From: Solimonas aquatica
GTDB taxonomy: Bacteria > Pseudomonadota > Gammaproteobacteria > Nevskiales > Nevskiaceae
Direction of reading: 5' to 3'
Assembly (NCBI RefSeq): GCF_900111015.1
Contig: NZ_FOFS01000014.1
Location: 62,001-126,000 of the forward strand
Length of the DNA: 64,000 bases
Shown here: positions 56,430 to 61,776 of the stretch, piece after piece
How positions within the stretch are numbered: the first letter of the stretch is position 1
Layout: each line of letters opens with the position of its first letter
The notes under the pieces: model-generated
Databases searched by the model: none
What the model was told of the DNA's origin: nothing
Seen by the model: the letters and a program-made list of their open reading frames with translations, nothing else
Program-made: the position numbers and the translations under genes

Positions 56430-57569
56430 TCAGGCGGCGGAGGTCGCCAGACGCAGGGCCGGCTTCACATTGGCGCTGCGCAGATCGCCGCGGTAATGCG
56501 CCTGCACGCGCGGATTCATCACCGCAAACCACAGCGGCGGGCAGTAGGCCAGCAGAATCATGCCGGCATAGCCATTGGGCAGCTGCGGGGAATCGTCGAA
56601 GTGACGCAGCGCCTCATAGCCGCGCAGCGGATGCGCGTGGTGGTCGGAATGGCGCTCCAGGCCGTAGAGGAAGATGTTGCTGAAGATGTGGTTGCTGTTC
56701 CAGGAATGCACGGGCTGGCAGCGCTCGTAGCGGCCGCTGGGCAGCTTCTTGCGGCACAGGCCGTAATGCTCCAGGTAGTTCACCACTTCCAGCAGGCTGA
56801 AGCCGTAGACGGCCTGGATCAGCAGGAAGGGCAGGGCCATCCAGCCCAGCCAGGCGACCAGGCCTGCGAACAGGATCGGCGTCATCACCCAGGCGTTGAG
56901 CACGTCATTGCGCCAGTGCCAGAAGCCGTGACCGCGACGCGCCATGCGCGCCTTTTCGATGGCGATGGCCGAGCGCATGCCGCCGAGGATGGTGCGCGGC
57001 AGGAAGGCGTAGAAGGATTCGCCGTAGCGCGAGGAGGCCGGATCTTCCGGCGTGGCCACGCGCACGTGATGGCCGCGGTTGTGCTCGGAGTAGAAATGAC
57101 CATAGCCGGTCGGCGCCAGCGCCAGCTTGGCCAGCCACTGCTCGAAGGGATTGGTCTTGTGACCCAGCTCATGCGCCACCGCGATGGCGATGCCGGTGGT
57201 CATGCCCACGGAAATCGACAGGCCCAGGTATTCGTACCAGTGCAGGGACTGGGTGGCGGCCACCCAGGCGGCCCAGATCAGCGAGGCGTATTCCACCGGC
57301 ACGGCGGCGTACACCGCCCAGCGGTAATAGCGGTCGCGCTCCAGCGCCGGCACCACGGCCTCCGGCGGATTGTTGCGGTCCTCGCCGAAAATGAAGTCCA
57401 GCGCCGGCACGCCCAGGTACACGAACAGCGGCGCGAACCACCAGAACAGGGACAGGCCGGTGGCCTGCACCAGACCGCCGCCGATCAGCGGCAGGGCCAT
57501 GGCCAGGATGCCCAGGAGCCAGAGGTAGCGCTTGCGGTCGCGCCAGTTGCCGGGAAGGGATTGCTGCAT
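56430..57569 (-). CDS. alkB: Alkane 1-monooxygenase
   Basis: A 379-residue integral membrane di-iron hydroxylase for the terminal oxidation of n-alkanes. Six helices carry the four conserved histidine motifs: [21 protein letters not shown] (with GLCR) and [11 protein letters not shown]. The start at 57569 matches the family N-terminus closely (length 379 versus about 400). It heads a cluster with two rubredoxins and ppnP. Two direct repeats upstream (57615-57652) are probable regulator sites. Confidence 0.95.
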
Positions 57570-57614
57570 GGTTCGCTCTCCAGATGTCGGGATCAGACGA
57601 CGGCCGGTTAATAA

Positions 57615-57652
57615 ACCGTACGTTCAATTCATAATTGTCCGAGCGTTCAATT
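57615..57652 (-). promoter_or_regulatory. Tandem operator-like repeats upstream of alkB
   Basis: Minus strand: AATTGAACGTACGGT (57629-57615) and AATTGAACGCTCGGA (57652-57638), two copies of a 15-bp unit differing at three positions, offset by 23 bp. They lie 46-83 bp upstream of the alkB start codon. The form suggests binding of two dimers of an unidentified regulator. No regulator gene adjoins alkB. Confidence 0.5.
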
Positions 57653-57702
57653 GCAGGCAAGCTGCGGGTTTCCGCAATCCGGCTCAAGTCTTTGTGCGCG
57701 AG

Positions 57703-57739
57703 GGAAAAAAGAAAGGGCCAAGTTGGGGGAACTTGGCCC
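57703..57739 (-). terminator. Strong intrinsic terminator of the small RNA
   Basis: Perfect 10-bp stem GGGCCAAGTT / AACTTGGCCC (57715-57739) with loop CCCCC on the minus strand, followed by TTTCTTTTTTCC. It points toward alkB, but lies upstream of its promoter and outside any gene, so it must end a separate short transcript. Confidence 0.8.
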
Positions 57740-57820
57740 TAGAGAACCCGGAGCGGTTGGGGGAAGTCCGGGTTGGGGGAGTCGAGGAAGCGGGCTTGGG
57801 GGACCGCGCTTCCATGGAAA
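57703..57820 (-). ncRNA. Candidate C-rich-loop small RNA (sX13-like)
   Basis: Read on the minus strand, three hairpins in tandem: arms 57807-57813/57086-57092 pattern is GGAAGCG...CGCTTCC (57786-57792 with 57807-57813), AACCCGGA/TCCGGGTT (57745-57752 with 57767-57774), and GGGCCAAGTT/AACTTGGCCC (57715-57724 with 57730-57739). All three loops and the linker between the first two carry TCCCCCAA (plus-strand positions 57723-57730, 57757-57764, 57773-57780, 57796-57803). The last hairpin is a terminator with TTTCTTTTTT. This is the design of Xanthomonas sX13, whose C-rich loops pair with G-rich mRNA sites. The 5' end and promoter are not certain. Confidence 0.6.
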
Positions 57821-57916
57821 TAAGACTACAGGCTGTCGGGAGACCAAACCGGGCATGTGGGATGCAAGGCCGGAATGGGCGGATAAACGGTAAGGTTGCC
57901 GCCCGTCCGCTGCTCA

Positions 57917-57959
57917 GGCATATCTGCATCCGCCTATGCGGATCAAGAGATATACTGCC
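57917..57959. promoter_or_regulatory. Palindrome in the metH promoter region
   Basis: Nested arms: GGCA/TGCC (57917-57920, 57956-57959), TATCT/AGATA (57921-57925, 57948-57952), ATCCGC/GCGGAT (57928-57933, 57938-57943). A TATACT -10-like hexamer is at 57951-57956, 29 bp before the metH ATG at 57985. It may be an operator overlapping the promoter, or an mRNA hairpin. No SAM, SAH or cobalamin riboswitch was recognised. Confidence 0.4.
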
Positions 57960-57984
57960 GGCCCGTTTTCAGCCGGCCGCCGCC

Positions 57985-61776
<3,792 letters not shown>

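Follow-up and report, generated by a model that had tools for sequence, protein, structure and literature searches.

Between metH and an alkB-like gene of Solimonas aquatica lies an intergenic region whose minus strand, judging from its sequence and that of its relatives, very probably encodes a real, conserved and so far undescribed small RNA (sRNA) gene. The window that we analysed is a stretch of 64,000 nucleotides (nt) of this genome, and unless stated otherwise coordinates are positions in it (Table 1). The candidate is referred to here as the metH-side RNA. In the literature searched, no paper mentions Solimonas together with an sRNA or small RNA.

Read on the minus strand from 57816 to 57705, the sequence has three hairpins with arms of 7, 8 and 10 base pairs (bp), four copies of TCCCCCAA and then a U-tract. 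Direct reading confirmed the three hairpins, their arm lengths and the U-tract after the last of them, which a first-pass annotation of this DNA had reported. The four copies (57803-57796, 57780-57773, 57764-57757 and 57730-57723), with no fifth in the 64 kb, compare with 0.98 expected in the window, and four were reached in none of 100 shuffles. The same annotation had counted the copies correctly and had placed three of them in loops; this placing needs correcting in detail: one copy is in the linker that precedes the middle hairpin, and of the copy in the terminator hairpin CCCCC alone is loop, with the AA in the stem.

The minus strand has a minimum free energy of -44.8 kcal/mol, versus -27.5 kcal/mol in shuffles (standard deviation 3.29; z -5.26), and none of 200 shuffles was as low. 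The plus strand likewise folds better than its shuffles (z -2.94, 0 of 200). A single terminator-like site was found in 57500-58100; it is on the minus strand, and 0.5 were expected in shuffles.

Table 1. Features of the metH-side RNA locus and its surroundings (positions in the window; a point marks a feature given without strand).
Feature	Position	Strand	Basis
Predicted small RNA, ~112 nt	57705..57816	-	Putative start from -10-like hexamer, end from U-tract
5' hairpin with C-rich loop, arms GGAAGCG/CGCTTCC (7-bp outer stem and inner pairs)	57786..57813	-	Read directly, fold
Linker C-tract TCCCCC, predicted single-stranded (C's unpaired 0.99)	57775..57780	-	Alignments, predicted accessibility
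Middle hairpin, arms AACCCGGA/TCCGGGTT, 8 bp, loop with CCCCCAACC	57745..57774	-	Read directly
Terminator hairpin, arms GGGCCAAGTT/AACTTGGCCC, 10 bp (11 with flanking A-U)	57714..57740	-	Terminator search, covariation
U-tract TTCTTTTTT of intrinsic terminator	57705..57713	-	Read directly, terminator search
-10-like hexamer TAGTCT (putative)	57823..57828	-	Upstream comparison
GCATCC element (putative activator site), 31 nt upstream of the -10-like hexamer	57860..57865	-	
Element CCGTTT (CCGYTY in relatives), starts 62 nt before the -10-like hexamer	57885..57890	-	
Palindrome ATCCGCCTATGCGGAT, ATCCGC-N4-GCGGAT, beside metH	57928..57943	.	SahR/SamR-like operator by analogy only
metH, divergent neighbour	57985..61776	+	NCBIfam NF007024 and TIGR02082 above cut-off
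alkB-like gene, downstream of the RNA, ATG at 57569	56430..57569	-	Pfam FA_desaturase; no NCBIfam match

With the intergenic region as query, blastn gave matches in 10 genomes out of 41, its own among them and none outside the genus; the match in one of them (G001) was to the palindrome beside metH, not to the RNA. A covariance model built from four sequences (R1), which matches the core of the RNA (57706-57783), was searched in 58 genomes of the family. We observed the RNA in all 11 genomes of the same genus (53.3-101.6 bits), in all four of a second genus (41.6-43.9 bits) and in one of three of a third genus (G013, 35.4 bits), so that 16 of the 58 genomes carry it at 35 bits or more. At E-value (E) <=0.1 R1 gave some match in 24 genomes; the 16 were kept and 25 weaker rows (<=34.4 bits) were dropped, 12 of which, inspected by eye, resemble unremarkable terminators, 3' ends or stretches of coding sequence. 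The named carriers are Solimonas, Sinimarinibacterium, Fontimonas and a Nevskiales metagenome-assembled genome.

Covariation was counted in an alignment of 15 sequences, 14 of them distinct (A5). This alignment was fitted to the model and so leans towards structure; it was used because the MAFFT alignments A1 and A2 misplace some stems. The terminator helix showed changes on both sides in seven of nine pairs, with 100% of cells paired. The middle helix (99.1% of cells paired) hardly varies, six of its eight pairs being invariant, and therefore gives little covariation information. For the whole structure the covariation score was 0.411 versus 0.112 in shuffles, none of 500 being as high, and slid structures lose score.

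Accessibility was predicted in relatives from transcripts with assumed starts (95-132 nt, n=16), which keep one order: some 5' structure, linker C-tract, loop C-tract, terminator. The linker and middle-loop C-tracts are predicted to be unpaired at 0.70-1.0 in all 16. At the position of the 5' hairpin relatives have other structures, and CCCCC in the loop of the terminator hairpin is not general among them; the window species alone among the 16 has CCCCC in all three hairpin loops, the first and third loops being often not C-rich elsewhere. The first-pass annotation held that lack of conservation of the loops and terminator in close relatives would refute its proposal. We found the linker, the middle loop and the terminator to be conserved, and C-rich first and third loops not to be general. 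Conserved C-tracts predicted to be accessible, together with an intrinsic terminator of its own, place the RNA among candidates for the trans-acting, C-rich-loop kind of sRNA.

The sequences upstream of the RNA share a pattern with fixed spacing. CCGYTY occurs at -62 or -61 from a TANNNT hexamer in 15 of 16 upstream regions, in nine of which GCATCC (at least five of six letters) is also found at -37 from the hexamer; in 2000 shuffles of these regions the motif was present in at most one of 16. The sequences used for this test were those in which the motif had been spotted by eye, the shuffles kept base composition only, and the figure of 15 overstates independence because G007 and G008, as well as the four second-genus genomes, are close relatives. 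The CCGYTY part travels with the RNA where metH is apart from it (G007, G008 and the second genus). We characterized this fixed-spacing element as a putative activator site of the RNA. That there is no gene here at all, only chance hairpins or a remnant, is scarcely credible given an RNA present in 16 genomes, its covariation and its conserved upstream spacing.

The gene metH is divergent from the RNA and adjoins it in nine of the 11 same-genus genomes and in G013. In G007 and G008 the two are separated by an alkB-rubredoxin pair. In the second genus metH was reached in the fetched stretches of two of the four genomes, starting ~2.7-2.9 kb away; the single stretch examined in full has one further gene between metH and the RNA. 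In G007, G008 and the second genus the 220 nt that precede the RNA do not contain the palindrome found beside metH, and in G001 a like palindrome precedes another gene, presumably ahcY. In several Proteobacteria control of ahcY and metH is ascribed to SahR, and in Xanthomonadales that of methionine genes to SamR (PMC4239095). Given this precedent, it is a fair guess by analogy that a methionine regulator would act at this site on metH and not on the RNA.

On the other side of the RNA lies the alkB-like gene, followed by rubredoxin-like genes (below the NCBIfam cut-off). It had been argued that the RNA, isolated from both flanking genes, must end its own transcript; by itself this argument fails, because alkB is downstream on the same strand and the RNA could be its leader. 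A cis-acting leader or attenuator of alkB would indeed fit the eight of 16 genomes in which the downstream gene is alkB-like and on the same strand (six by tblastn, G007 and G008 by N-terminal likeness), but in four genomes this gene is of another kind and in four, which are all four of the second genus, it is on the opposite strand. Rubredoxin-like and nucleoside-phosphorylase-like genes follow the RNA in G002 and G006, with no alkB adjoining; the open reading frame downstream in G010 is neither alkB nor rubredoxin-like and we take it to be an outer-membrane protein gene, while that in G013 is, as we read it, sigma-factor-like. Because the downstream genes vary among relatives, we consider the leader improbable and the alkB neighbourhood incidental. 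The connection of the RNA with alkB that the first-pass annotation had suggested was thus not borne out: alkB does not adjoin the RNA in several relatives. As a defining context for the RNA, alkB was rejected in view of these differing genes and of the upstream elements, which stay with the RNA in G007 and G008. Separately, two TTGAACG-type motifs before alkB (57605-57660) are a possible regulator site or promoter for that gene.

The layout of the metH-side RNA had been likened to sX13, which is described as an RNA of 115 nt with three stem-loops and C-rich loops (PMC3771888); in the parts of that paper used here it is reported in Xanthomonadaceae only and always downstream of polA. The predicted length of ~112 nt, three hairpins and C-rich loops of the metH-side RNA agree with this description, whereas its position next to metH instead of polA, its conserved linker C-tract and the lack of a match to RF02232 (sX13) do not. 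Neither RF02232 nor RF02837 (anti-hemB) was matched in a Rfam scan of 57560-57990 at E<=10, or in the loci of eight relatives at E<=5. With the Rfam cut-offs (in bits: RF02232, 50; RF02837, 49.5; RF02278, 50; RF01719, 50; ncS54, 43; RF01066, 47), the RNA is covered by no family; its best match, ncS54, stands at 27 bits.

The polA gene of S. aquatica is on another contig and has its own C-rich RNA downstream (1185-1278 of the fetched stretch, minus strand). In a scan of the RNAs at five polA loci with RF02837 this polA-linked RNA scored 52.9 bits, above the cut-off; with sX13 it gave 27 bits. Since no Rfam match was found and another RNA occupies the place at polA that is that of sX13, we conclude that the metH-side RNA is not an sX13 orthologue. 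As an orthologue of either sX13 or anti-hemB the metH-linked RNA was rejected on these grounds. What stands of the proposed sX13 layout is a conserved sRNA gene with predicted accessible C-tracts, its own terminator and model links to the RNAs between polA and engB described below; membership of the sX13 family, with no RF02232 match and no place at polA, does not stand.

These links appeared with a second covariance model (R2), built from 15 metH-type RNAs only. It was searched in a drawn sample of 369 genomes of the class under strict filters, with 13 candidates scored per genome, for which reasons absence elsewhere in the class means little. At E<=1e-5 nine of the 369 genomes were matched: its own and eight outside the order. 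All eight outside matches are beside EngB, with PolA also in the fetched stretch of six; seven of these eight polA-engB RNAs match anti-hemB weakly (27-37 bits). In a search of 85 genomes R2 matched 28 at E<=0.001, namely the 16 with the metH-side RNA, three at polA (G083, G032 and G039) and nine others, of which two places were read by eye, among them one after dcaP in G073. Taking both searches together, nine of the ten R2 matches at E<=1e-5 outside the metH-side RNA are at polA-engB. Tandem C-rich three-hairpin RNAs were seen between polA and engB in G083 (five copies), and two or more such copies in several other genomes of its family.

A third model (R3) was built from seven of the eight polA-engB RNAs. 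In the window it gave one match at E<=10, to the metH-side RNA (57784-57707, 43.3 bits, E 1.5e-11), and it matched this RNA at all 16 loci (25.5-45.6 bits; a 17th weak match, at 14.3 bits, was ignored). At E<=0.01 it matched 29 of the 30 fetched Nevskiales polA loci; the count is out of 30 because no locus was obtained for 10 of the 40 polA-carrying genomes. The best R3 score in 55 control loci (392 kb, C-rich pattern) was 12.4 bits. The anti-hemB RNAs (also Burkholderia RNA 7, RF02837) and the polA-linked RNA of S. aquatica resemble the metH-side RNA in having hairpins with C-rich stretches and a terminator, and R3 matches both RNAs of S. aquatica; the polA-linked RNA passes the RF02837 cut-off, in contrast to the metH-side RNA, which gives no match. 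Both RNAs are present in all 11 genomes of the genus according to R3, and ~20 nt (CCNCCAACCCGGNUUNCCCCAA) are common to metH-side and polA-engB RNAs. Matches were thus obtained in both directions, from R2 to polA-engB RNAs and from R3, whose training RNAs had been picked by R2, to the window.

In nine genomes (G001-G003, G006-G010 and G017) polA and the metH-side RNA are on one contig, at distances of 25-50 kb in seven and of 122 and 296 kb in two; the RNA is not between polA and engB, being linked to metH instead. We also searched genome contigs for the DNA pattern CCCCAACYCGGAN(0-6)CCCCAACC and found 67 stretches. Twelve of them, all from Nevskiales, score 71-90 bits with R2; the other 55 score 21.8 bits or less. 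Nineteen of the low-scoring stretches were read by eye (13 from Magnetococcales or a relative), and most look like Gly/Pro-rich coding repeats; in Magnetococcales the C-rich pattern is seen repeatedly in sequence that seems to code for Gly/Pro-rich repeats.

On balance we lean towards a trans-acting sRNA with its own promoter and terminator, a relocated relative of the polA-engB RNAs that would act through pairing of C-rich with G-rich sequence. In the account that follows we infer that the RNA is transcribed, how it acts and on which targets, that it shares descent with the polA-engB RNAs and which way the duplication went. The minus strand would give a transcript of ~112 nt that starts at a dedicated promoter, located between metH and the following gene, and stops at a dedicated terminator. 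CCCCCAA in the linker and CCCCAACC in the middle loop would stay exposed, and these C-tracts would most likely reduce translation through pairing with G-rich sequence that overlaps a ribosome binding site or lies close to it. The analogy is with sX13, for which repression was shown to need both the C-rich loops and the G-rich motifs of the target (PMC3771888). The metH-side RNA would then be a relocated paralogue of the C-rich RNA downstream of polA, driven by its own promoter. If the locus encodes an sRNA at all, its common descent with polA-engB RNAs appears probable, because nine of the ten R2 matches are at polA-engB, 6C-like RNAs are unlisted by R2 and the ~20 nt are common. A more detailed version, to which we give less than even credence, is that one copy stayed at polA and another moved to metH, keeping the C-rich seed and gaining a new fixed-spacing promoter that is probably activator-driven. 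One could speculate that, if so, the seeds of the two RNAs overlap while the signals to which they respond differ, and that they compete for a common set of G-rich targets or share it out between them.

Several observations weigh against this account. R2 and R3 are not independent, because the RNAs on which R3 was trained were chosen by likeness to the metH-side RNA. None of the eight polA-engB RNAs matches RF02232 at E<=0.1. The polA-linked RNA of S. aquatica itself obtains 16.3 bits with R2 (E 0.03), and with R3 it obtains 29.3 bits versus 43.3 bits for the metH-side RNA; therefore recent copying of this RNA, and its direction or date, are unsupported. The best in-order R2 match beyond the metH-side RNA belongs to G073, where it follows a porin gene, dcaP (42.2 bits, E 3.6e-8); among the R3 matches are a dcaP 3' end of S. 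aquatica itself (28.1 bits) and, in G007, G008 and G009, 6C-like RNAs close to mnmG (29.8-36.4 bits). As both models match dcaP 3' ends or 6C-like RNAs, C-rich loops themselves earn score and part of the signal is a shape class.

These matches are also what one would expect if the RNA is a real C-rich-loop sRNA unrelated by descent to the polA-engB RNAs, its recurrent shape being what the models recognise, and the weak matches (~19-28 bits) to ncS54, RF02278, suhB/mmgR and SorX agree with such a convergence. It is, however, at odds with the concentration of non-self R2 matches at polA-engB and with the ~20 nt held in common; moreover, at E<=0.001 the 6C-like RNAs of G007-G009 are absent from the R2 matches of the 85-genome search, where filters were stricter. 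We regard convergence as a serious alternative, though the less probable of the two.

The two groups of RNAs just mentioned are of interest in themselves. C-rich hairpins with a terminator occur just past the stop codons of dcaP genes (Pfam DcaP) in two genera, and it is possible that they represent a C-rich RNA derived from the 3' untranslated region. The 6C-like RNA near mnmG has two hairpins whose loops contain runs of at least six C; in G007-G009 it scores 33-38 bits with RF01066 (6C), below the cut-off.

The search for targets also failed to favour the proposed pairing. We searched 11 genomes for the pattern GGTTGGGGN(2-12)ATG, with a backward control and two permuted octamers. The pattern was found 136 times versus 62 in the backward control; the permuted octamers occurred before ATG 257 times (93 backward) and 245 times (57 backward). 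Since both are found more often, GGTTGGGG at 2-12 nt before ATG is not enriched in these 11 genomes, and the expected excess of G-rich sites was not observed. Such a test may demand longer seeds than four to five C. In 39 stretches fetched around pattern sites from six of the 11 genomes, many of the ATGs open no long frame. The best-kept G-rich site belongs to a first candidate target, a protein of unknown function (with a weak bMG1 match, below cut-off): a TTGGG- or CTGGGG-type ribosome binding site was seen in eight of the nine Solimonas-group genomes with a match, but S. aquatica itself lacks the site. For the second candidate, a ComEA-like gene, the site was present in G007 and G008 only, of 10 loci.

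Two other known families were compared. Betaproteobacteria toxic small RNAs, or double-hairpin RNAs (RF02278), are described in the relevant portion of PMC5688073 as short, with two hairpins and CU-rich unpaired stretches, and as present in three to five copies in Burkholderia. An RNA of this Burkholderia kind would find some backing in that description and in RF02278 scores of 27.6 and 27.1 bits in two relatives, yet both scores are far below the cut-off, the family has no match in the window at E<=10, and the metH-side RNA has a single strong copy per genome where RF02278 RNAs are multi-copy; we consider this identity highly improbable. ErsA of Pseudomonas (RF01719, Pseudomon-1/ErsA) comes into view because its model gives 32.4 bits for one of the polA-engB RNAs detected with R2; this is below the cut-off, and no RF01719 match is listed for the window. 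Moreover, ErsA is described as having an unstructured U-rich domain that separates SL1 from SL2, and as requiring Hfq to activate anr.

Two further RNAs elsewhere in the window scored above cut-off: a Mn2+ riboswitch (RF00080; 33946-34118, plus strand, 54.1 bits) and a TwoAYGGAY RNA (RF01731; 18052-18119, minus strand, 55.1 bits, model positions 45-113 of 168).

The metH-side locus adds an undescribed small RNA, very probably a genuine one, conserved through a genus, and C-rich RNAs downstream of polA are seen to occur well outside Xanthomonadaceae. The presence of several C-rich RNAs in one genome would make a natural set for learning how like-seeded regulators divide their work.
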